In this document: positions 45,303-56,913 of the stretch, piece by piece
Layout of the letters: each line of letters starts with the position of its first letter
How positions within the stretch are numbered: position 1 is the first letter of the stretch
Source: Sediminispirochaeta smaragdinae DSM 11293
GTDB lineage: Bacteria > Spirochaetota > Spirochaetia > DSM-16054 > Sediminispirochaetaceae
Direction: 5' to 3'
Assembly: GCF_000143985.1 (NCBI RefSeq)
Contig: NC_014364.1
Span: 1,054,001-1,118,000 of the forward strand
Length of the DNA stretch: 64,000 nt
The notes under the pieces: generated by a model
Seen by the model: only the letters and a program-made list of their open reading frames with translations
Database searches by the model: none
What the model was told of the DNA's origin: nothing
Translations under genes and position numbers: made by a program

Positions 45303-46505
45303 CTACCCCCTAATAACCACTCCTCCGTGAATCACCGTTCGTCCTTTTTTCCCGCCGATGAGAGCCTCAACCGGATTAGGAGCATCTACGATTACCATAT
45401 CGGCTCTGCACCCCTGCTTTAGCCCATAATCCCTTATACCCATCGCCCGAGCCGGGGTTTCGGTGATCATTGCCGACAGATCCTGGCTGCGGCTGTAGGG
45501 GTCCAGCTGGGCCACCTGAGCGGTGAGGAGCAACTCTTCAAGGGGATCTCCGTTGCCGAAGGGGCGGAAGGGGTCTCTGATGTTATCCGAGGCTACCGCC
45601 ACCGGCACCCCCGCTTCAATGAGTTCTGTGATTCGGGTCGTACCCCGACGACGATTCTTGGTATCGCTGCGTCCCATGAGAAAAAGATTACAGGAGGGCA
45701 GTGTTACCACATTGACGCCGGAGCTGGCAACCTTTTCGATTACCCGTGCCGCTGCATCCGCATCCATTGCCGAAAGAGAGGTACAGTGGCCCGCCGTCAC
45801 ACGGCCGGCCATCCCGTATGCCATGGTTTTCTCGGCAAGATAGTCGAGGGCATCGGCATTTGCTTTCTCGCTTTCGTCCACATGCAGGTCGATTGGAAGA
45901 CCACTTATCTTTGCAAGACGGAAGAGGGTGTCGGTAAGTTCCCGATGATTATTACTCAAGGTGGGACAGCCGCCTATTGCGTCCGCCCCTGTCGCTATGG
46001 CCCTTTCCAGCAGGTTATAGACGGCATCTCCGGGAACAATCCGTTCCACGGCCCCGGGAAAGGCGACCAATTGAATCGTCATTTGATCCTTATAGTGTTC
46101 TCGTACCTTGCAGGCGCTTTCCCAGAGCTTCATACCGGTGAAACGTTCAAGGGTAATATGGCTTCTCAGTATCGAGGTCCCGGCCTCGATGGCCATTTCA
46201 ACCATGTTACAGCCGTTTTCATATAACTCCTCTTCATCGACGTCCCTGAAGTAGGCGTTCATGCTTTTAATCGCTTCTAACAGGGTGCCTGAGTAATTAT
46301 GTATGCGACCGGCGGTCATTGCTTTATCAAGATGGGTGTGCATGTCGACAAAGCCGGGGAAAACGGTTTTTCCTGAAGCATCAATAATCTTTCGGCCGGC
46401 TTCTGTGATGCGGGAAGCCTTTTCCACAATGAACCCTTCCTTGATGCCAAGATCCATTGTTCCGCTTCCGTGAATATTCCCCCGTTTGATTACTAAATCA
46501 TACAT
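45303..46505 (-). CDS. cytosine deaminase-like amidohydrolase
   Basis: 400 residues of the metal-dependent amidohydrolase superfamily. Seen: G-F-V-D-M-H-T-H-L-D-K (HxH metal ligands), then LRSHITLERF, the I-D-L-H-V-D-E-S-E block, V-T-A-G-H-C-T-S-L, and the late metal Asp in V-A-S-D-N-I-R-D-P-F. These are CodA/N-isopropylammelide-type signatures. It is divergent from a nucleoside/purine importer and near two molybdenum hydroxylases, so a base-deaminating step is likely. Exact substrate (cytosine, isoguanine or other) is open. Confidence 0.87.
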   Translation of the reverse strand: MYDLVIKRGNIHGSGTMDLGIKEGFIVEKASRITEAGRKIIDASGKTVFPGFVDMHTHLDKAMTAGRIHNYSGTLLEAIKSMNAYFRDVDEEELYENGCNMVEMAIEAGTSILRSHITLERFTGMKLWESACKVREHYKDQMTIQLVAFPGAVERIVPGDAVYNLLERAIATGADAIGGCPTLSNNHRELTDTLFRLAKISGLPIDLHVDESEKANADALDYLAEKTMAYGMAGRVTAGHCTSLSAMDADAAARVIEKVASSGVNVVTLPSCNLFLMGRSDTKNRRRGTTRITELIEAGVPVAVASDNIRDPFRPFGNGDPLEELLLTAQVAQLDPYSRSQDLSAMITETPARAMGIRDYGLKQGCRADMVIVDAPNPVEALIGGKKGRTVIHGGVVIRG

Positions 46506-46580: not shown

Positions 46581-47576
46581 ATGAAAAAAGGATTGTTGTT
46601 GCTACTGGCTGTTTTACTTTTTCCCATCGTATCTTTTGCGGAAGGGCAAAAGGAGGGAGAGTCCAGTGACCAGTTGAAGGTTGCGGCTCTTTTGCCCGGT
46701 CCCATCAACGACGGCGGATGGAACACCAATATGTATGATTCGCTTAAGTTTATGGAGAAGGAGCTTGGTGCAAAGATCGCCTATACCGAACGAACCCCGG
46801 CATCCGACTACGAGGAGATTTTCCGGGGCTATGCCGCCAGCGGATATAACATTGTATTCGGACATGGTTTTGAGTTCGGTGAACCAGCGGAAAAGGTGGC
46901 GAAGGAGTTCCCCGATGTTACCTTTATCATCACCAGCACCAGCATAAGTCAGCCCCCCAATTTAGGTTCCTTTCTTGTCGACGATTTCCAGTGCGGGTTT
47001 GTCCAGGGGGCTGTTGCGGCGATCCTCTCAAAGAGCGGAATCGTCGGTTATGTCGGCGGTATGGAGATTCCCCCCATCGTGAATCAGAGCAAGGGCTTTG
47101 TCGCCGGTGCGAAATATGTCGATAAGTCTATCGATGCCAAGGCGCTCTTGACCGGTAGTTTCGAAGACATCGCTAAGGCAAAAGAGATGTCAAAATCTCT
47201 TATTGCCGAAGGCGCCGATATCCTCGTGGCGGATGCCGACGAATCGAACCACGGCGTGATCGAGGCGGTTGAAGAGGCCGGAGCTCTCGTTATCGGAAGT
47301 TCAGGCGACATCTACGAAACGGTCCCCGATGCACGAGATGTTATCCTGACGAGCATGACCGAGAATATGCCGAAAGGGCTGACCGTACTTGCCAAGTCGG
47401 TCGCCGACGGTACCTTTGAGGCAAAGAACTATATTATCGGTTTGCATGATGGGGCTGTTGCCCTTGCTCCGTTTCGGGATAAAGCGAGCCTTGTTTCCGC
47501 CGATCAACAGGCACAGATCGATAAAATCATCCAGGATCTGAAAGACGGCACCATCGACCTGAATCAGTATAAGTAA
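46581..47576 (+). CDS. BMP-family (PnrA-like) nucleoside/purine-binding protein
   Basis: 331 residues. A signal peptide ends near VSFA-EGQ, with no lipobox Cys, unlike most BMP lipoproteins. Family sequence: L-L-P-G-P-I-N-D-G-G-W-N-T-N-M-Y-D, then YEEIFRGYAASGYNIVFGHG, F-L-V-D-D-F-Q-C-G-F-V-Q-G, and the G-Y-V-G-G-M-E-I-P-P block. PnrA-type proteins bind purine nucleosides. The next genes are the matching permeases and ATPase. A stable hairpin follows the stop. Confidence 0.9.
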   Translation: MKKGLLLLLAVLLFPIVSFAEGQKEGESSDQLKVAALLPGPINDGGWNTNMYDSLKFMEKELGAKIAYTERTPASDYEEIFRGYAASGYNIVFGHGFEFGEPAEKVAKEFPDVTFIITSTSISQPPNLGSFLVDDFQCGFVQGAVAAILSKSGIVGYVGGMEIPPIVNQSKGFVAGAKYVDKSIDAKALLTGSFEDIAKAKEMSKSLIAEGADILVADADESNHGVIEAVEEAGALVIGSSGDIYETVPDARDVILTSMTENMPKGLTVLAKSVADGTFEAKNYIIGLHDGAVALAPFRDKASLVSADQQAQIDKIIQDLKDGTIDLNQYK

Positions 47577-47639: not shown

Positions 47640-48716
47640 ATGAACAGACGATTGAACACTATTCTTGTGCAGTGTGTCTCTATCACTGTAGCCTTTGCCC
47701 TTGGTGCCGTCGTGATCAAAATGATCGGGATATCACCGCTTTTTGCCTATGGTGCGCTCCTTAACGGCTCTTTCGGAAGCATCAATGCAATCGGAGAAAC
47801 TCTCGTTAAGATGACGCCCCTTATCCTCACAGGCTTAAGTTACGCCTTTGCCGCCAGAGCCGGACTTATCAACATCGGAGCGGAGGGGCAACTCTATGTA
47901 GGGGGGATCTTAGCAACCCTTGTCGGCTCCAACTTTGCCGGACTGCCTATGATTATTCACGTGCCTTTTGCCGTTGCCGCCGCTTTTGCAGGCGGAGCAG
48001 TATGGGGCGGATTGGTAGGTCTTCTTAAAGTAAAGTTTGGCGCCAATGAAATCATCACAACGGTGATGCTCAACTATATTGCCATCTATCTGGTAAGCTT
48101 TCTCGTTACCGGTCCGATGAAGGCTCCGCCCGGAACAATGCCCGAAAGTCGACCGATTGTCGATTCTGCGCAACTGGTGCGGATATTGCCCGGAACAAGG
48201 CTTCATATCGGCATCTTCATTGCCCTTCTTGCTCTGCTTTTTTACTATTTTTTTATATTTAAAATGCGGCAGGGGTATGAAATGCGGGTTGTAGGGAACA
48301 ACATGGAGTCGGCCCGGGCCGCAGGGATGCGTCCTCAGCGTACAATGGTTCTCGCCATGCTTCTTGCCGGAGGAATGGGAGGGCTGGCAGGTGGCGTTGA
48401 GATCCTTGGAATCCAGGGACGCCTGCTGCAATCCTTTAGTCCCGGCTACGGATTCGACGGTATTGCCGTTGCTCTGGTTGGGGTGAACAACCCTGTCGGC
48501 ATCGTTCTTGGAGCCTTGCTTTTCGGCTTTCTTCGAGCCGGGGGCAACAGAATGCAGCTGATTGCCCAGGTACCGGTTTCGGTTATCTACGTCGTCCAGG
48601 GCTTGGTTATTACCTTTGTGATCATCGGTCAGAATCTGCATGTTTTTCAAAAGGTCGGGGTAAACCGCCCCTTCCGTCGGAAGACTGGGGACGGTCCTGC
48701 CCCGGAGGTGCTCTGA
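47640..48716 (+). CDS. nucleoside/purine ABC permease 1 (YufP/NupP-like)
   Basis: 358 residues with about eight to nine membrane segments. Family blocks are A-F-A-A-R-A-G-L-I-N-I-G-A-E-G-Q-L-Y-V-G-G, then FGANEIITTVMLNYIAIYL and, near 220, RVVGNNMESARAAGM with GGLAGGVEILG. It overlaps the second permease by one base (TGATG). Paired with it and the ATPase at 49655 it forms the membrane channel. Confidence 0.92.
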   Translation: MNRRLNTILVQCVSITVAFALGAVVIKMIGISPLFAYGALLNGSFGSINAIGETLVKMTPLILTGLSYAFAARAGLINIGAEGQLYVGGILATLVGSNFAGLPMIIHVPFAVAAAFAGGAVWGGLVGLLKVKFGANEIITTVMLNYIAIYLVSFLVTGPMKAPPGTMPESRPIVDSAQLVRILPGTRLHIGIFIALLALLFYYFFIFKMRQGYEMRVVGNNMESARAAGMRPQRTMVLAMLLAGGMGGLAGGVEILGIQGRLLQSFSPGYGFDGIAVALVGVNNPVGIVLGALLFGFLRAGGNRMQLIAQVPVSVIYVVQGLVITFVIIGQNLHVFQKVGVNRPFRRKTGDGPAPEVL

Positions 48717-49639
48717 TGGAACTTCTTAGTTATCTACTGGCGACCGATCTGCGAATGGCCGCTCCTATTCTCATTGCCGCTCTTGGGCTCCTTTTCATGG
48801 AAAAAAGCGGTGTAGTCAATATCGGTTGCGAAGGGATGATGCTCTTCGGGACCTTTTTCGGTGTTTTCTTTGCCCGGCTTTCAGGTTCACCCTGGATAGG
48901 CTTGCTTTTTGCCGGAATGACCGGGATGGTCATTGGGCTCTTTTTTGCATTCATTGTGGTTACCCTGCGGGCTAATCAGATTGTGACGGGGATAGCCCTA
49001 AACATTATTGCTCAGGGGGCCACCTCGACCCTGAACCGACTTATCTTCGGCGTGTCAAGCCAGGCGGCCAATGCGCCGGGCTTTGAGGTTGTTCCCATTC
49101 CCCTGCTTTCGAAGATTCCCGTTATCGGGGATTCCCTTTTTAATCAGATGGGGCCCATCTATCTCGCCCTGCTCCTTGTTCCTCTGATCCGCTGGTTTAT
49201 GATGAAGACAACCATGGGTCTGAAGATTCGTGCCGTGGGAGAACATCCCCATTCTGCCGATACTGCAGGAATAAATGTACGCTCTGTGCGCTATGGCAGC
49301 ATTCTGGCCGGATCCTTTCTCGTGGGGGCGGCCGGAGGATTCCTCTCTCTTGGTATTCTGAGCCTCTTTTCTGAAAATATGGTGAGCGGAAGAGGGTATA
49401 TCGCCCTGGCCGTCATCATTTTCGGGAAGTGGAACTCTTGGGGAGTTCTTGCCGCCGCCCTGGTTTTTGGCCTCGGGGATGCGGTACAGATCAAGATGCA
49501 AACGGCCGGGAGTTCGATTCCCTATCAGTTTCTCATGATGCTTCCTTATATCCTGACGATTCTGGCACTTTCCGGATTTGTCGGAAAAGCGGAATCTCCT
49601 GCGGCATCGGGGAAACCCTTTCGCAACGACGAGCTATAG
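48716..49639 (+). CDS. nucleoside/purine ABC permease 2 (YufQ/NupQ-like)
   Basis: 307 residues, about eight membrane segments. Landmarks: S-G-V-V-N-I-G-C-E-G-M-M-L-F-G, A-N-Q-I-V-T-G-I-A-L-N, then R-A-V-G-E-H-P-H-S-A-D-T-A-G-I-N-V and the late RGYIALAVIIFGKWNSWG stretch. The two permeases are homologous but distinct, the usual heterodimer of BMP-type importers. The ATPase gene follows after 15 bases with AAGGAG upstream. Confidence 0.92.
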   Translation: MELLSYLLATDLRMAAPILIAALGLLFMEKSGVVNIGCEGMMLFGTFFGVFFARLSGSPWIGLLFAGMTGMVIGLFFAFIVVTLRANQIVTGIALNIIAQGATSTLNRLIFGVSSQAANAPGFEVVPIPLLSKIPVIGDSLFNQMGPIYLALLLVPLIRWFMMKTTMGLKIRAVGEHPHSADTAGINVRSVRYGSILAGSFLVGAAGGFLSLGILSLFSENMVSGRGYIALAVIIFGKWNSWGVLAAALVFGLGDAVQIKMQTAGSSIPYQFLMMLPYILTILALSGFVGKAESPAASGKPFRNDEL

Positions 49640-49654
49640 GATTAAGGAGCGGCT

Positions 49655-51172
49655 ATGGATACATATGAAACAGTCCTGGAAATGAGAGGTATTACCAAGG
49701 TTTTTCCCGGTGTCGTTGCCAATGATGCTATTAATTTCGATCTACGAAAGGGTGAGGTCCATGCCCTTCTCGGAGAAAATGGGGCGGGGAAAAGTACCCT
49801 GATGGGCATTCTTTCCGGGGTTTACCAGCCGACGGAGGGATCAATCGTGTTGGAGGGGGCCCCTGTCCGTTTCGATTCCGCCAGGGATGCCATTCATAAC
49901 GGTATTGGGATGGTGTATCAGCATTTCATGCTGGTGCCGAAACTGACGGTTGCGGAGAATATCATGCTTGGGATCAAGCGGCCGAAGGAACCGCTTCTGC
50001 AGATCGACAAGGCATCGGAACAGATCGTCGCTTTTGCCCGTACATATGGCATGGATTTAGATCCGGAACAGAAGGTCGCTTCCCTCACCGTCGGCCAGCA
50101 GCAGCGGGTTGAGATTGTAAAAGCACTCTTTCGCGGGGCAAAGATCCTTGTTCTTGATGAGCCTACGGCGGTCCTTACCCCGAAAGAGATCCAAGAGCTT
50201 TTTAGTATGATCAAGATGCTTACCGATCAGAACTTTTCCGTTATCTTTATAAGCCATAAGATCGACGAGGTTATTGAGATCAGCAATCGTATTTCCGTGC
50301 TTCGGCGGGGTAAACTTGAAGCAACTATCAATAACGAGGGAGTTTCCAAGGAAGAATTGGCTGGTCTCATGGTCGGCCGCGATGTTTCCTTCTGTGTTGA
50401 GAAAACTCCCTGCTGCCCGGGGGATTCCGTCCTTGCTCTTGAAGGGGTGGGGCTAAAGGACCGCGAAGGTCGACCTCTCCTGAAGGATGTGAACTTTGAG
50501 GTACACGAAGGGGAAATTTTTGGGGTAGCCGGTGTCGATGGAAACGGGCAGGACGAATTACTCGAGGTGATAACGGGTCTTCGATCCGCCTCGGAAGGAT
50601 CGGTTTGCATCGTCGGTCAGGAGGTCCTGGGAAAAAGCCCCCGCCAGATCCTGGAAATGGGCTTGGCTCATATCCCTGCGGACCGACAAGCCCGCGGCCT
50701 TGTGTTGAGCATGGATATCAAAGAGAATTTTATTATCAATGATTATTATCGCTCTCCGCATAGCAAACGGGATATCATCTCCTGGCCCTTTGTCAGAAAG
50801 CATACAAAGGAAAACATCGAGCGCTTCGATGTTAGAACCTCTTCCATTGATACCCCGGTTTCGACCCTTTCAGGGGGAAACCAGCAAAAGCTGATTCTTG
50901 CCAGGGAGCTTCATGGCAAGCCGGTCCTTTTGGCTGCAATGCATGCCACCCGGGGGCTCGATGTGGGGGCCATTGAATATGTACATCAACGGATACTCGA
51001 ACAGCGTGCAGCGGGAACCGCGGTCCTGTATATTTCGACAGAGTTAGAAGAGCTTATGAGCTTTTCAGATAGGATTGCCGTGATGTTCAGGGGGGAAATT
51101 ATGGGGATTGTTCGGCCCGAAGAAGTGACAATTGATCAAATTGGGCTTATGATGGCAGGAAGTATAACGTAA
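49655..51172 (+). CDS. nucleoside/purine ABC ATPase, two nucleotide-binding domains (YufO/NupO-like)
   Basis: 505 residues. Domain 1: Walker A GENGAGKST, signature region LTVGQQQRVEIVKAL, Walker B ILVLDEPTAVL. Domain 2: GVDGNGQDEL replaces Walker A, signature LSGGNQQKLILAREL, and the Walker B position reads V-L-L-A-A-M-H-A-T-R-G-L-D-V-G-A, lacking the acidic pair, as is common in this family. Only domain 1 is expected to hydrolyse ATP fully. The GntR gene follows after one base. Confidence 0.92.
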   Translation: MDTYETVLEMRGITKVFPGVVANDAINFDLRKGEVHALLGENGAGKSTLMGILSGVYQPTEGSIVLEGAPVRFDSARDAIHNGIGMVYQHFMLVPKLTVAENIMLGIKRPKEPLLQIDKASEQIVAFARTYGMDLDPEQKVASLTVGQQQRVEIVKALFRGAKILVLDEPTAVLTPKEIQELFSMIKMLTDQNFSVIFISHKIDEVIEISNRISVLRRGKLEATINNEGVSKEELAGLMVGRDVSFCVEKTPCCPGDSVLALEGVGLKDREGRPLLKDVNFEVHEGEIFGVAGVDGNGQDELLEVITGLRSASEGSVCIVGQEVLGKSPRQILEMGLAHIPADRQARGLVLSMDIKENFIINDYYRSPHSKRDIISWPFVRKHTKENIERFDVRTSSIDTPVSTLSGGNQQKLILARELHGKPVLLAAMHATRGLDVGAIEYVHQRILEQRAAGTAVLYISTELEELMSFSDRIAVMFRGEIMGIVRPEEVTIDQIGLMMAGSIT

Positions 51173-51173
51173 T

Positions 51174-51920
51174 ATGAGGCCCGTAATGAAGGAGTATGGA
51201 CCACAAGGAAAGAAGTTCCCAAAATATAAAGTTATCAAGCACTATCTGTTGCAGCGGATTAAGGAAATGGTGCCGGGAGATAACCGTTTGGAAACGGAAG
51301 AGGTCCTATCGGAAAAGATGGGAGTGAGCAAGGCGACGGTCCGGCAGGCAATGGATGAGCTGATTAGCGAGGACCTAATAACACGGCAGCAGGGAAAAGG
51401 TGTATTCGGCCATCCCCGAGTCGGGGAATTGAAAATGCATCTTGGCCTCTGGGCCAATTTTCGGGATTATCTTTCCCGGGCGGGATATCGAGTGTCCGTA
51501 ACTCAATCTCCGTTTCGGGTAGATATCGCCTCGAAGCATATGGTCGCACGAGCTCCCTCTCTTGAGGGGGCACACGTGTATGCCTTCGATTGGATTTATT
51601 ATGCCAACGACAAACCTGTTATCGTCTGTAGGATCGAGGTTCCCATGGATCTCGTTATCAATCCTCTTCAGTCCGAGGTGCCTCCTCTTACCCTCAAAGA
51701 GAGCCTGAAGACGCTGAGCGGGAAAAATTTTTCCTATGCCATCAGCTGGATTCGCAGTTCTCTTGACAGGGAGGCTGCCAGGCTCTTCGCTCTTGATGAG
51801 ATGACCGCTTTCTTGGTATGGGATGAAAATTTTTTCGATTTATACGATAATCATCTTTGTTATAATGAGATTCTGTTTCATCCCGATTATCTCGATTTTT
51901 CGATCATCTGCCATTTTTAG
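51174..51920 (+). CDS. GntR-family regulator with UTRA-type sensor domain
   Basis: 248 residues. N-terminal winged helix: Y-K-V-I-K-H-Y-L-L-Q-R-I, then LSEKMGVSKATVRQAMDELISEDLI and R-Q-Q-G-K-G-V-F. C-terminal domain resembles UTRA/HutC effector domains, with V-Y-A-F-D-W-I-Y-Y-A-N-D-K-P-V and a trailing D-N-H-L-C-Y-N-E-I-L-F-H. It sits between the importer and the molybdenum hydroxylase genes, all close together, so it likely controls them in response to a purine or related base. A second ATG at 51186 could be the start. Confidence 0.85.
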   Translation: MRPVMKEYGPQGKKFPKYKVIKHYLLQRIKEMVPGDNRLETEEVLSEKMGVSKATVRQAMDELISEDLITRQQGKGVFGHPRVGELKMHLGLWANFRDYLSRAGYRVSVTQSPFRVDIASKHMVARAPSLEGAHVYAFDWIYYANDKPVIVCRIEVPMDLVINPLQSEVPPLTLKESLKTLSGKNFSYAISWIRSSLDREAARLFALDEMTAFLVWDENFFDLYDNHLCYNEILFHPDYLDFSIICHF

Positions 51921-51928
51921 GAGGTACC

Positions 51929-54181
51929 ATGAGAACCATCGGATCAAGCGTTCCTGTTCATGATGCGCAGGCAAAGGTAAAAGGTGCCTGCTTGTATACC
52001 GACGATTTGGAGCCCTCGGACCTCCTTTATGCCAAGCTGCTTTACTCAAAAGAGGCGCATGCAAGGATTGTCTCTGTCGACAGCACTGAGGCCGAGGCAA
52101 TGGAAGGAGTCATTGCCGTCCTCTCCTGTTTCAATACCACGCCGCGTTTCTACAACAGCGCCAAGCGCTTTGATGAGCAGGAGGTGCCCGAGGATGAGCA
52201 GATCTTTCCCCGAATCGTCCAGCATGTGGGCGACAGGGTTGCGGCGGTGGTTGCCGAACGTCCCGAGCAGGCTTTGCGAGCTCTAAGGGCAATCAAGGTA
52301 ACATACGAACCGCTTCCGGCTGTTTTTGATCCAGAAGAGTCCCTTGCCCTGCAGGATGGTTCCGGACTGTATGCGAAGATTTCGACCTCCGGGGGCGATC
52401 TCGAAGCCGGCTTCTCCCAGGCCGATGCTGTTTTCGAGGGGAGGAAAGAGACCGAGGCGATACACCATCTCGCCTTAGAGCCCCACTCGGTGATTGCCGA
52501 ATGCCGGAACGGAAAGAAAGCCACTGTCTGGACCAGTACCCAGACGACCTTTGCGGTGAGGATGCTCCTTTCCGAACTCTTCGGATTTCCCAGAAGTCGA
52601 ATCAGGGTTGTTAAACCGGTCATGGGCGGTGGATTCGGTGCAAAGATACCGATGATTCTTGAGCCCGTGGCCCTTGCCGCGGCGATCAAAACCGGCAGGC
52701 CGGTTAAGCTCACCCTTTCGCGAAAAGAGGCCTTCTTTGCCACACGAATGCGGCACGCGTCCAAAACCAGGATCAAAACCGGGGTAAAGAAGGACGGTAC
52801 CATTATCGCACAGGATATCACCATACTCTTCAATGGGGGAGCTTACTGCACCCAAAGCATCAACGTCGGTGCCGCAACGGTTCACGATATCGTAAATTGC
52901 TTCAGGACTCCCAATATTCGGGTAACGGCTCTTCCCGTACGGACAAACCTCCCGGTTGCCGGAGCCATGCGTGGTTATGGATCACCTCAGATGCACTTCG
53001 CCCTCCAGACCCACCTCGCCCAGGTTGCGCGGCAGTTGGGGATCGACTTTTATACCTTTCTTGAACGTAATCTTGTACACCCTGATGCGATCTCTCCCGT
53101 GGGAGGGAGAAGCCTTGGAAACCCCAGACCCCTTGATTGTCTGCGCAAAGGTGGGGAGCTATTCGGTTGGAAGGCAAAAAGCGCATTGCCCAGGATAGTC
53201 GGGAAGAATCGCTTCCACGGTGTGGGAATCGGTGTCGGAACCCATGGGAATGGCGTCTTCGGCGCTCATCTTGACTATACCGGTATCAGGGTCCGGATGA
53301 ACGAGGATGATACGGTGCTTCTCTTTACCGGCAGTCACGATATGGGCAACGGATCGGTGACGGTTCAGAAGATGATCGTTAGCCAGGAGCTCGACGTTCC
53401 TCTGGAGCGTATCGAGGCGGTGGAATCGGATACCGAAAACTGTCCCTACAACCTTGGCGATTATGCCAGCCGCGGCGTCTTTGTCTCTGCCGAGGCGGCA
53501 AGGAGAGCGGCAGTTGCTCTACGGGCTTTAATCCTCGAAAAGGGAGGAATTTTGACCGGTCGCCCCTCGGCAGAGCTCTCCTTGGGGGCAGAGGCCCTGT
53601 TGGGAAGCGACGGCACCTCTGTGATGAGCCGCAAAGAGCTGTTTCGGCGAGTCAATCAGGAGTTGCAGCAGGATCTGGAGGTAACCGAAAGCTGGGCGAA
53701 TGCGGCAGGGCGTACCTCATACGGCATCCATTTCGCTGAAGTAGAGGTCGACGGCAACAGCGGAGAGGTCGATATTCTCTCCTATGTGGCGGTCCACGAT
53801 GTGGGTAAGGTTTTGAACCGGCAGGGCATTGAGGGGCAGCTCGAGGGTGGGATTCATATGTCGACAGGCTACGCCCTGAGTGAGGAGCTTCGTTTCGATG
53901 AAAAGGGTGCCGTGATAAACGGTTCTCTCGGACGCTACAACATCATTCGTGCGAGTCGAATGCCGAAAAAGCTGATTGTCGATTTCATCGAAGAGGGGGA
54001 AGAACCTGGCCCCTACGGGGCAAAAAGCATCGGCGAATGTGCCACTGTTCCCGGGGCTGCTGCGATTGCAAATGGTGTTGCTGATGCCCTCGGGATCGAA
54101 GTTAACCACATTCCTCTTACACCTGAGCGGGTTCTTGCCCTCCTTTCCTCAAAGAACGGCGAGGATCTATGTCCGGCTTGA
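51929..54181 (+). CDS. molybdenum hydroxylase large subunit (xanthine dehydrogenase family)
   Basis: 750 residues: an aldehyde oxidase/xanthine dehydrogenase a/b hammerhead domain (about 10-115) and the molybdopterin-binding domains. Seen are V-M-G-G-G-F-G-A-K, then AMRGYGSPQMHFALQ, the G-S-H-D-M-G-N-G-S-V block, and the catalytic Glu in A-K-S-I-G-E-C-A-T-V-P. No iron-sulfur or FAD domain is present. GGAGG lies 6 bases upstream. It overlaps the next hydroxylase gene by 13 bases. Substrate is probably a purine or related heterocycle, by context. Confidence 0.88.
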   Translation: MRTIGSSVPVHDAQAKVKGACLYTDDLEPSDLLYAKLLYSKEAHARIVSVDSTEAEAMEGVIAVLSCFNTTPRFYNSAKRFDEQEVPEDEQIFPRIVQHVGDRVAAVVAERPEQALRALRAIKVTYEPLPAVFDPEESLALQDGSGLYAKISTSGGDLEAGFSQADAVFEGRKETEAIHHLALEPHSVIAECRNGKKATVWTSTQTTFAVRMLLSELFGFPRSRIRVVKPVMGGGFGAKIPMILEPVALAAAIKTGRPVKLTLSRKEAFFATRMRHASKTRIKTGVKKDGTIIAQDITILFNGGAYCTQSINVGAATVHDIVNCFRTPNIRVTALPVRTNLPVAGAMRGYGSPQMHFALQTHLAQVARQLGIDFYTFLERNLVHPDAISPVGGRSLGNPRPLDCLRKGGELFGWKAKSALPRIVGKNRFHGVGIGVGTHGNGVFGAHLDYTGIRVRMNEDDTVLLFTGSHDMGNGSVTVQKMIVSQELDVPLERIEAVESDTENCPYNLGDYASRGVFVSAEAARRAAVALRALILEKGGILTGRPSAELSLGAEALLGSDGTSVMSRKELFRRVNQELQQDLEVTESWANAAGRTSYGIHFAEVEVDGNSGEVDILSYVAVHDVGKVLNRQGIEGQLEGGIHMSTGYALSEELRFDEKGAVINGSLGRYNIIRASRMPKKLIVDFIEEGEEPGPYGAKSIGECATVPGAAAIANGVADALGIEVNHIPLTPERVLALLSSKNGEDLCPA

Positions 54182-56913
54182 TTGGTGAAACGATTCACTT
54201 CCGGGTCAACGGCATTGAGCGGGAAATTTGCCCGAAACAGGGAATGAGCCTGATGCGCTATCTTCGTGAAGAACTGGGGCTGACGGGGACAAAGTGCGGA
54301 TGTCAGAGTGGTGACTGCGGCACGTGCAAGGTGCTTGTGGACGGCCAGGCGGTCAATTCCTGCACCCTTGCGCTGAGGAAACTCGAAGGCTGGGAGGTCG
54401 TTACCATCGAGGGGCTTGCCCCCGATGCCACCCGTCCGGGAAGTACCCTTCATCCCGTCCAGCAGGCCTTTATCGATGCGGGGGCAATACAGTGTGGGTT
54501 CTGTACGCCGGGGATGATTATCACCACGGTGGCTCTTCTGTCTCGCAACCCCGACCCTTCTTCTGATGAAATACGCAAAGCCCTCGATGGAAACCTGTGT
54601 CGCTGCACCGGGTATCGAAAGATTGTCGATGCTGTTTTACTGGCCGTGCGGTATATGCGTGGCGGAGTACAAAACATTGAAGAAGGCGGAAGGCCGGCAG
54701 GTCCTAACACCATTGCCCTCGGAATCCCTTCACCGGTCAGGGACGCTCGGAAAAAGGTAACCGGACGTCTTTTGTATACCGGCGATCTCAATGTTCCCGG
54801 TATGCTTGTCGGCAAAATCCTCTATGCACCGGCGGCCCACGGCCTGATTACCTCTATTGATACCAGCCTGGCAGAGGCCCTTCCCGGCGTCAGGGCTGTG
54901 GCAAGTTTTGCGAACAGCCCCGATAAGCCCTATAACAGCCATACAACCCTCCCGTTTCAGAAAGTTCCCAAAAATGAGCGTATATTCAACCGTCACTTTC
55001 GTTTTCATGGCGATAGGATCGCGGCCGTTGCCGCCGAAGATGAGGCAACGGCTCGTAAGGCCCTCGGCCTTATCAAGATCGAATGGGAACCATATCCTGC
55101 AAGTCTCACGATAGAGGATGCGCTTGCTCCAGGTGCCAAATCCATCCATGAGGGCGGCAACCTCGCCGATACTATACGTGAGGAAGGGGGAACTCCATCC
55201 CCAAAGCGGGGAGAGCGGTACGAAGGTGTCTTTCGGCTGCCGAGGGTGACCCATGCCGCACTGGAACGGCACATCTCCATCTCCGATTTCGACGGCGAAC
55301 GGCTTACCGTCTATTCTTCCTGCCAGAACGTCTTTTGCTACAGGGCCATGCTCGGCGAACTCTTCGATCTGCCGCTTAACCGGGTTCGGGTTATCAAACC
55401 TGCGGTCGGCGGCGCCTTCGGGGGAAAATCCGAGATGGTGAGTGAGCCGGTCTCCTCCCTTCTTGCTCTCATGACCGGCCGGCCGGTAAAGGTGGAACTC
55501 TCACGGAAAGAGGTTATGTGTTCCACCAGAACCAGAACCTCCGGACGAATCGAGCTTTCCATGGAAGTTGACGAGGACGACCGTTTTATATCCCACGATT
55601 ATCACGCCTATCTGGATCGCGGTGCCTATTTCGGCAGTGCCTACGATCTCGGCTATGCCCTGATGGATAAGGCCTTTCGGCTCTATCGCGTACCCAGGAT
55701 CGATACCTCCGCCGCTCTCGTTTATACCAACAATCAGGCTGCAGGGGCCGTGAGAGGCTATGGTAATCCCCAGATAAGCTTTGCCCGGGAGGTGCTGATC
55801 GACCGCATCTGCCGACAAAGGGGGATCGATCCCCTCGAATTCCGGATAAAAAACCTGGTCCTTCCCTGGGACCGAAACCCGGCAAACGGATACTCTCTGG
55901 GCAACTGCCGGATCATCGAGTGCCTTGAACTGGGTGCCGGACTCTGCGGCTGGGAAGAAAAGCGAAAGAGATCGGATTCAGGAACCATTCGCCGGGGAAT
56001 CGGCCTGGCTTGCGGGGTCCATGGCTCGGGGATACACCCGGGATCGGTGGATTACTCGACGGCAGGGCTGAAGATGAACGGCGACGGAACAGCCCGCCTC
56101 TCCATCTCCGCCCATGAAAACGGTCAGGGCAGCAGCGTTGTCATGGCAAAGATCGCCGCCGAGGTCCTCGGCATCCCCGAAACCTCTATCAGTCTGGTAG
56201 AGACCGATACCGAGACCACCTGGTACGACAACGGAAGCTATGCAAGCAGGGAGACCTGGGCCTGCGGCGGTGCTGTCAAGCGGGCCGCGGAATCGGTGAA
56301 GCGGCAGCTGACCGAAGAGGCAGCTGTTATGTTCGGCTGCACGGTAGGCGCGGTCGTCGCGGGGGCGGGATACTGCAGAAAGCGGGCAGGGGAAGCTGAC
56401 GCCATCCTTAGTTATGGTGATGTCATTGCCTATGCCCGTTCTCATTACCCCTATCATGATATCAATGCGGTGGAGAGTTACGCCTCGCCCATGGACCCCG
56501 GCTCTTACTTTGTCAACTTCGCCGAGGTTGAGGTCGACATGGAAAAGCGGACGATCAAGGTCCTCAAGGTAACCGTTGTTCATGACTGCGGCACCATCAT
56601 CAACCCAATGCTTATCGAAGGACAGGTGGACGGCGGTATGCATATGGGACTCGGCTATGCCCTCTGCGAAGAGCTTCTGAGCGACCGACACACGGGAAAG
56701 CAGCTGACGACAAGTTTCAAGCAGTATAAGATGATTTCTCCGGAGGCAATGCCTGAAGTTGAACTTCGATTTCTCGGGGGCCAGGAACCCCTTGGACCTT
56801 TCGGCGCCAAGGGGATCGGAGAAGCCACCACTGTTGCTATTGCCCCCGCGGTGGCTAATGCTGTTACTTCCGCCACCGGGATTGAAATATCATCGCTTCC
56901 GATTAAAATATGA
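54169..56913 (+). CDS. [2Fe-2S]-molybdopterin fusion hydroxylase (Mop/xanthine dehydrogenase type)
   Basis: 914 residues. N-terminal plant-type [2Fe-2S] ligands C45, C50, C53, C65 (C43 adjacent); second [2Fe-2S] domain with C109-x2-C112 and C144-x-C146. From about 185 a complete second molybdopterin subunit follows: G-G-A-F-G-G-K, AVRGYGNPQISFA, S-A-H-E-N-G-Q-G-S-S, and catalytic Glu in A-K-G-I-G-E-A-T-T. This is the layout of Desulfovibrio aldehyde oxidoreductase (about 907 residues), with no FAD domain. With the preceding gene it implies either a heteromer sharing its iron-sulfur clusters or two enzymes. Confidence 0.88.
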   Translation: MSGLIGETIHFRVNGIEREICPKQGMSLMRYLREELGLTGTKCGCQSGDCGTCKVLVDGQAVNSCTLALRKLEGWEVVTIEGLAPDATRPGSTLHPVQQAFIDAGAIQCGFCTPGMIITTVALLSRNPDPSSDEIRKALDGNLCRCTGYRKIVDAVLLAVRYMRGGVQNIEEGGRPAGPNTIALGIPSPVRDARKKVTGRLLYTGDLNVPGMLVGKILYAPAAHGLITSIDTSLAEALPGVRAVASFANSPDKPYNSHTTLPFQKVPKNERIFNRHFRFHGDRIAAVAAEDEATARKALGLIKIEWEPYPASLTIEDALAPGAKSIHEGGNLADTIREEGGTPSPKRGERYEGVFRLPRVTHAALERHISISDFDGERLTVYSSCQNVFCYRAMLGELFDLPLNRVRVIKPAVGGAFGGKSEMVSEPVSSLLALMTGRPVKVELSRKEVMCSTRTRTSGRIELSMEVDEDDRFISHDYHAYLDRGAYFGSAYDLGYALMDKAFRLYRVPRIDTSAALVYTNNQAAGAVRGYGNPQISFAREVLIDRICRQRGIDPLEFRIKNLVLPWDRNPANGYSLGNCRIIECLELGAGLCGWEEKRKRSDSGTIRRGIGLACGVHGSGIHPGSVDYSTAGLKMNGDGTARLSISAHENGQGSSVVMAKIAAEVLGIPETSISLVETDTETTWYDNGSYASRETWACGGAVKRAAESVKRQLTEEAAVMFGCTVGAVVAGAGYCRKRAGEADAILSYGDVIAYARSHYPYHDINAVESYASPMDPGSYFVNFAEVEVDMEKRTIKVLKVTVVHDCGTIINPMLIEGQVDGGMHMGLGYALCEELLSDRHTGKQLTTSFKQYKMISPEAMPEVELRFLGGQEPLGPFGAKGIGEATTVAIAPAVANAVTSATGIEISSLPIKI

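Follow-up and report, generated by a model that had tools for sequence, protein, structure and literature searches.

The two overlapping genes described here (gene 1 and gene 2) are probably, judging from their sequences, the catalytic subunits of two distinct flavin-free molybdenum (Mo) enzymes of the xanthine dehydrogenase family, and the iron-sulfur (Fe-S) subunit serving gene 1 is most likely encoded in trans, rather than the clusters of gene 2 being borrowed. Both genes lie in a 64 kb stretch (the window, the whole of the DNA analysed, at positions 1054001-1118000) of the genome of Sediminispirochaeta smaragdinae DSM 11293, the host, which is a single contig of 4,653,970 bp. Spirochaeta smaragdinae SEBR 4228T is a strict anaerobe (PMC3035371). 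The model as a whole, comprising two FAD-free Mo enzymes, an orphan Fe-S subunit supplied to gene 1 in trans and a diffusible electron carrier, is one we hold with moderate confidence; it is built on gene content, domain make-up, subunit bookkeeping, conservation and phylogeny, all of which are observed in the sequences. The features concerned are listed in Table 1.

Table 1. Features of the gene 1/gene 2 neighbourhood (window positions) and the candidate electron carrier (host genome positions).
Feature	Coordinates	Strand	Remarks
Divergent amidohydrolase	45303..46505	-	Nearest solved structures: cytosine deaminases, AtzC
BMP/PnrA-like substrate-binding protein	46581..47576	+	Nearest solved structure: AtzT
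ABC permease 1	47640..48716	+	61% identity to its counterpart at the G045 Fe-S/Mo pair
ABC permease 2	48716..49639	+	62% identity to its counterpart at the G045 Fe-S/Mo pair
ABC transporter ATPase, BMP-type uptake system	49655..51172	+	
GntR/UTRA-family regulator	51174..51920	+	8 bp upstream of gene 1
Gene 1, XdhA-like Mo subunit, no Fe-S domain	51929..54181	+	750 aa; Pfam, curated family profiles
Gene 2, fused 2x[2Fe-2S] and Mo subunit	54169..56913	+	914 aa; Pfam, curated profiles, PDB match
Iron-sulfur-flavoprotein-like gene, last in the orphan Fe-S operon	1243451-1244113		FMN_red-type, CxxCxxCx5C

An earlier note on this DNA had described a pair of overlapping Mo hydroxylase genes, one fused to two [2Fe-2S] domains, and had placed Fe-S domains in the second protein only. 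Coordinates, Pfam domains and a 13 bp overlap between the open reading frames, which are in different frames and each have a Shine-Dalgarno-like sequence, agree with this description. Gene 1 is composed of Ald_Xan_dh_C, MoCoBD_1 and MoCoBD_2 only; gene 2 carries, from the N- to the C-terminus, Fer2, Fer2_2 and then the same Mo domains, with all eight cluster cysteines present by inspection. Every Mo domain of the xanthine oxidase family (hammerhead, MoCoBD_1, MoCoBD_2) scores far over the Pfam cut-offs in both proteins. Assignment to curated families is less direct. For both genes the best-scoring family is XdhA (NF043082), although at 566 bits for gene 1 and 605 bits for gene 2 both miss its cut-off of 780, and the profile for selenium-dependent xanthine dehydrogenase (TIGR03311) gives 280 and 482 bits, respectively, below its 830-bit cut-off. 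Gene 1 also falls far short of the NCBIfam model for 4-hydroxybenzoyl-CoA reductase alpha (419 bits against a cut-off of 995). The best PDB match of gene 2 is the aldehyde oxidoreductase of D. gigas, over 900 residues, and it scores 484 bits against the cut-off of 1100 for the FAD-free aldehyde oxidoreductases of the MOP type (NF045668); it thus shares their architecture, yet belongs to a separate family.

The second species of the genus retains the pair in the same cluster, at 94% (gene 1) and 96% (gene 2) identity, and dN/dS between the two species is 0.093 for gene 1 and 0.096 for gene 2; the arrangement is therefore not a product of chance. Gene 2 has four distant relatives in the genome collection (33-36%), and the two-Mo arrangement is absent at all three of their annotated loci. 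A plasmid search with gene 1 returned matches all below 60%, mainly rhizobial. Two candidate origins for the pair were rejected. Tandem duplication fails since a tree that makes sisters of the two genes is rejected at AU p 0.0016, gene 1 pairing instead with a Mo subunit of a more distant spirochaete, G045; the two genes are best described as old paralogues that seem to share a transcription unit. A former Fe-S fusion, since lost from the region upstream of gene 1, was likewise discarded, as the GntR gene occupies that space and no Fer2_2 remnant is found there.

The immediate concern is how gene 1 obtains its electron wire, and here a count of subunits across the complete host genome is instructive. 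It contains ten Mo subunits, ten Fe-S units (Fer2_2) and six FAD genes. Nine Mo/Fe-S pairs are fused or adjacent, which leaves gene 1 as the only Mo subunit without an adjacent or fused Fe-S unit and a gene at 1239321-1239836, 131 kb from gene 1, as the only Fe-S unit without a Mo partner. The second species has eight Mo subunits and eight Fe-S units, two fewer of each than the host, and has kept both orphans, the same two being left over; the argument from this orphan pair rests on two closely related species. All eight cluster cysteines are present by inspection in the orphan Fe-S protein. Its gene comes second in what is apparently an operon, with the order BMP, Fe-S, permease, permease, ATPase and flavoprotein; the transporter encoded there and that of the window are paralogues (39-57% identity). 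Phylogeny of the Fe-S units places the orphan in a nine-member clade with support of 98/89, in which all the others are paired, by fusion or adjacency, with Mo subunits from the clade of gene 1 and gene 2. Among the nine, the orphan is sister to the Fe-S domain of gene 2 (100/86) and not to the Fe-S subunit of G045, although the alternative tree which unites it with the latter, while not the best, is not rejected (AU p 0.195). The earlier note had held that gene 1 alone would have no route for electrons. This is not supported: one Fe-S subunit lacking a Mo partner exists, sits in the matching clade and recurs in the second species.

G045, which belongs to the same class but to another family, provides a further line of evidence. 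There, the orthologous transporter, a GntR gene and an adjacent pair of Fe-S and gene-1-type Mo genes occur together, without FAD; the GntR/UTRA regulator of the window has a relative (34% identity) beside this related cluster. The Mo subunit of this pair is the nearest relative of gene 1 (grouped at 100/99 in the tree), the two have a GNG motif in common in the alignment, and the Fe-S member of the pair shares 63% identity with the orphan. We note that the Mo gene in question (L109:6352-8621) has a frameshift at about residue 519 of gene 1, which in so fragmented an assembly may be an error or mark a pseudogene. Most simply, gene 1 would have descended from an adjacent Fe-S and Mo pair like that of G045, its Fe-S partner now being encoded in trans. 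It is the orphan bookkeeping, the recurrence of the orphans in the second species and the adjacent pair of G045 that favour a trans-encoded subunit for gene 1.

Mechanistically, gene 2 would then be a self-contained Fe-S/Mo enzyme built like the aldehyde oxidoreductase of D. gigas, while gene 1 would take the orphan Fe-S subunit, from the paralogous BMP-type operon, as its wire. In each, electrons would pass from Mo through two [2Fe-2S] clusters to a diffusible carrier, which may be the flavoprotein encoded last in the orphan operon, or else a ferredoxin or flavodoxin. Both enzymes would be hydroxylases or dehydroxylases from a single clade of the xanthine dehydrogenase family, their genes probably sharing a transcript with those for a regulator and for N-heterocycle uptake. 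The complex between gene 1 and the orphan, the identity of the carrier, the substrate and the direction of the reaction are all parts of this scheme that we infer.

The flavoprotein is found, at E<=1e-50, in three of the 297 genomes of the class (the host, G000; G001; and G045), and the same three carry gene-1-type Mo. This co-occurrence is suggestive; as two of the three genomes share a genus, it amounts to two independent lineages only. In G045, the Mo gene close to the flavoprotein gene belongs to the clade but is not of the gene-1 type; the same region (L111:539-7133) also encodes an aldehyde ferredoxin oxidoreductase of the AFOR type and a hydrolase of the YgeY family. A more specific version of the scheme would make gene 1 part of a split, FAD-free Mo hydroxylase spread over two operons, with both the Fe-S subunit and a dedicated flavoprotein acceptor residing in the second purine-type ABC transporter operon. 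If so, assembly of the enzyme would need both uptake systems to be expressed. We regard this version as possible, though doubtful. Against a supply of the Fe-S subunit in trans stands that the orphan Fe-S gene is co-encoded with a different transporter from that of gene 1, and that no convincing operator common to the two operons was found, shared words extending up to 11 bp.

The earlier note had offered another wire, in the form of a heteromer in which the two [2Fe-2S] clusters of gene 2 would serve the Mo sites of both proteins. The Mo sites in dimers of the xanthine dehydrogenase family are generally far apart, which speaks against it. An association of this kind would agree with the overlap of the genes, which neither species of the genus has separated, and with the tendency of family dimers to form through their Mo subunits (PMC3958847), as is the case for GAOR2 of S. 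tokodaii (PMC4726530). Yet in the latter the cofactors within each protomer are arranged nearly in a line and make up a separate wire, with 13.4 A between Mo and the first cluster (PMC4726530), so that clusters of one protomer serving the Mo of the other are disfavoured. Moreover, the gene-1-type Mo of G045 comes with an Fe-S gene of its own, and the host genome offers an unpaired Fe-S subunit. The shared wire thus fares poorly, and we consider it unlikely.

As to FAD, the earlier note had found no FAD-binding partner among the neighbours, and this holds throughout the window: no FAD_binding_5 gene is present in its 64 kb, nor is there an FAD domain in gene 1 or gene 2, so that the unit lacks the FAD subunit or domain expected of a canonical NAD-linked xanthine dehydrogenase. 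The products of gene 1 and gene 2 might nevertheless recruit an FAD subunit encoded elsewhere and so form conventional NAD-linked enzymes. The genome does hold six FAD_binding_5 genes, the closest to gene 2 at 1163546, about 53 kb downstream, and loci are known to share subunits in S. tokodaii, where the Mo subunits of GAOR2 and GAOR3 assemble with distantly encoded Fe-S/FAD subunits (PMC4726530). Against this, all six lie in other clusters with Mo and Fe-S genes of their own. Furthermore, members of the same Mo clade in G045 (C191) and G011 (C18) form Mo and Fe-S units with no FAD gene in the stretch examined, and beside two others, in G045 (C170) and G073 (C188), the sole FAD gene belongs to a second Mo/Fe-S set further along. 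Recruitment of FAD in trans is accordingly judged quite improbable. The lack of FAD is, on this comparison of loci, a trait of the Mo clade and not peculiar to the pair; another two-subunit set without FAD occurs in the host genome at 3154731-3157486. The further expectation, taken from typical xanthine dehydrogenases, that such enzymes need FAD was too strong, given that the aldehyde oxidoreductase of D. gigas is FAD-free, with flavodoxin substituting for the flavin subunit (PMC10223205); XdhD of C. difficile is likewise without an FAD subunit (PMC12507026). An electron acceptor other than NAD, as the note had also proposed, is plausible for a unit free of FAD.

Both Mo subunits look functional at the level of sequence, in keeping with the suggestion in the note that both could be active. 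The catalytic Glu lies in SIGE in gene 1 (residue 703) and in GIGE in gene 2, in an alignment column that is Glu in all aligned rows, and the RGYG Arg, the GG-FG loop and the Gln of EGQ are kept in both. In the AlphaFold model, gene 1 adopts the complete fold of a Mo subunit (mean pLDDT 84), and its best structural matches are the Mo domains of bovine xanthine oxidase (Z 47.9, rmsd 2.5, 706 residues) and 4-hydroxybenzoyl-CoA reductase alpha. That gene 1 is idle or structural, persisting as a passenger after the loss of its true Fe-S partner, is hence very improbable: no Fe-S gene is adjacent to it and Asn replaces Gln at the position of xanthine oxidase Q1040, but non-Gln residues are frequent in that column across many family members, the cofactor-site residues checked are retained, a full-length fold is predicted, and a dN/dS of about 0.09, the same as that of gene 2, indicates that gene 1 is not decaying.

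The neighbouring genes offer some insight into the substrate. The structure of AtzT, to which the substrate-binding protein is closest, was obtained with guanine bound (PMC6834077). Together, the AtzT-like and the cytosine deaminase- or AtzC-like neighbours suggest that the substrate is an aminated purine or pyrimidine, which may be taken up, deaminated and then hydroxylated or reductively dehydroxylated; the enzymes of gene 1 and gene 2 probably act on purine-like compounds.

Other Mo loci of the host deserve mention. A second two-Mo cluster (2919363-2926960; Mo1, FAD, Fe-S1, then Fe-S2, Mo2) has a single FAD gene for two Mo/Fe-S pairs and no counterpart among the Mo genes of the second species. 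Mostly by eye, an E. coli-like region at 1475640-1489960 resembles the reductive urate cluster, with YgfK-, SsnA-, YgfM- and XdhD-like genes, and a further region (3138704-3143000) contains yqeC-, yqeB/XdhC- and selD-like genes, which suggests that selenium-dependent molybdenum hydroxylases are present in the host.

The puzzle of the missing wire thus likely has an ordinary answer, namely an Fe-S subunit supplied in trans, with a soluble acceptor standing in for FAD. The components are of known kinds and their combination is a modest novelty. Perhaps of wider use, counting orphan subunits across a genome can resolve a puzzling operon, the wire in this instance probably lying inside another transporter operon, and the analysis points to a small clade of FAD-free Mo hydroxylases among anaerobic spirochaetes, whose proposed carrier other than NAD can be tested and which bears on purine breakdown by anaerobes.

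Among known systems, the aldehyde oxidoreductase of D. gigas (MOP; PDB 1sij/1vlb) resembles gene 2 in having two [2Fe-2S] domains followed by the Mo domains, without FAD, but is specific for aldehydes, whereas gene 2 scores higher against XdhA than against NF045668. GAOR2 and GAOR3 of S. tokodaii (PMC4726530) provide a precedent for Mo genes located far from the Fe-S gene that they use, shown there biochemically and proposed here for gene 1; in contrast to the apparently FAD-free gene 1 and gene 2, they share one Fe-S/FAD scaffold and retain FAD. In the reductive urate pathway of E. coli and C. difficile (PMC12507026), XdhD resembles gene 2 in joining Fe-S and Mo domains in one protein and in being encoded in a cluster for N-heterocycles, and the C. 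difficile enzyme shares with gene 2 the lack of an FAD subunit, ferredoxin having been proposed as its partner (PMC12507026). XdhD nonetheless belongs to a different clade from gene 1 and gene 2, and the host has an XdhD-like gene of its own (1487089) with a YgfM-like FAD gene. Finally, 4-hydroxybenzoyl-CoA reductase alpha (PDB 1rm6), the best PDB sequence match of gene 1, is likewise a separate Mo subunit, from a dehydroxylase of the same family which, unlike gene 1, is accompanied by an FAD/[4Fe-4S] subunit.
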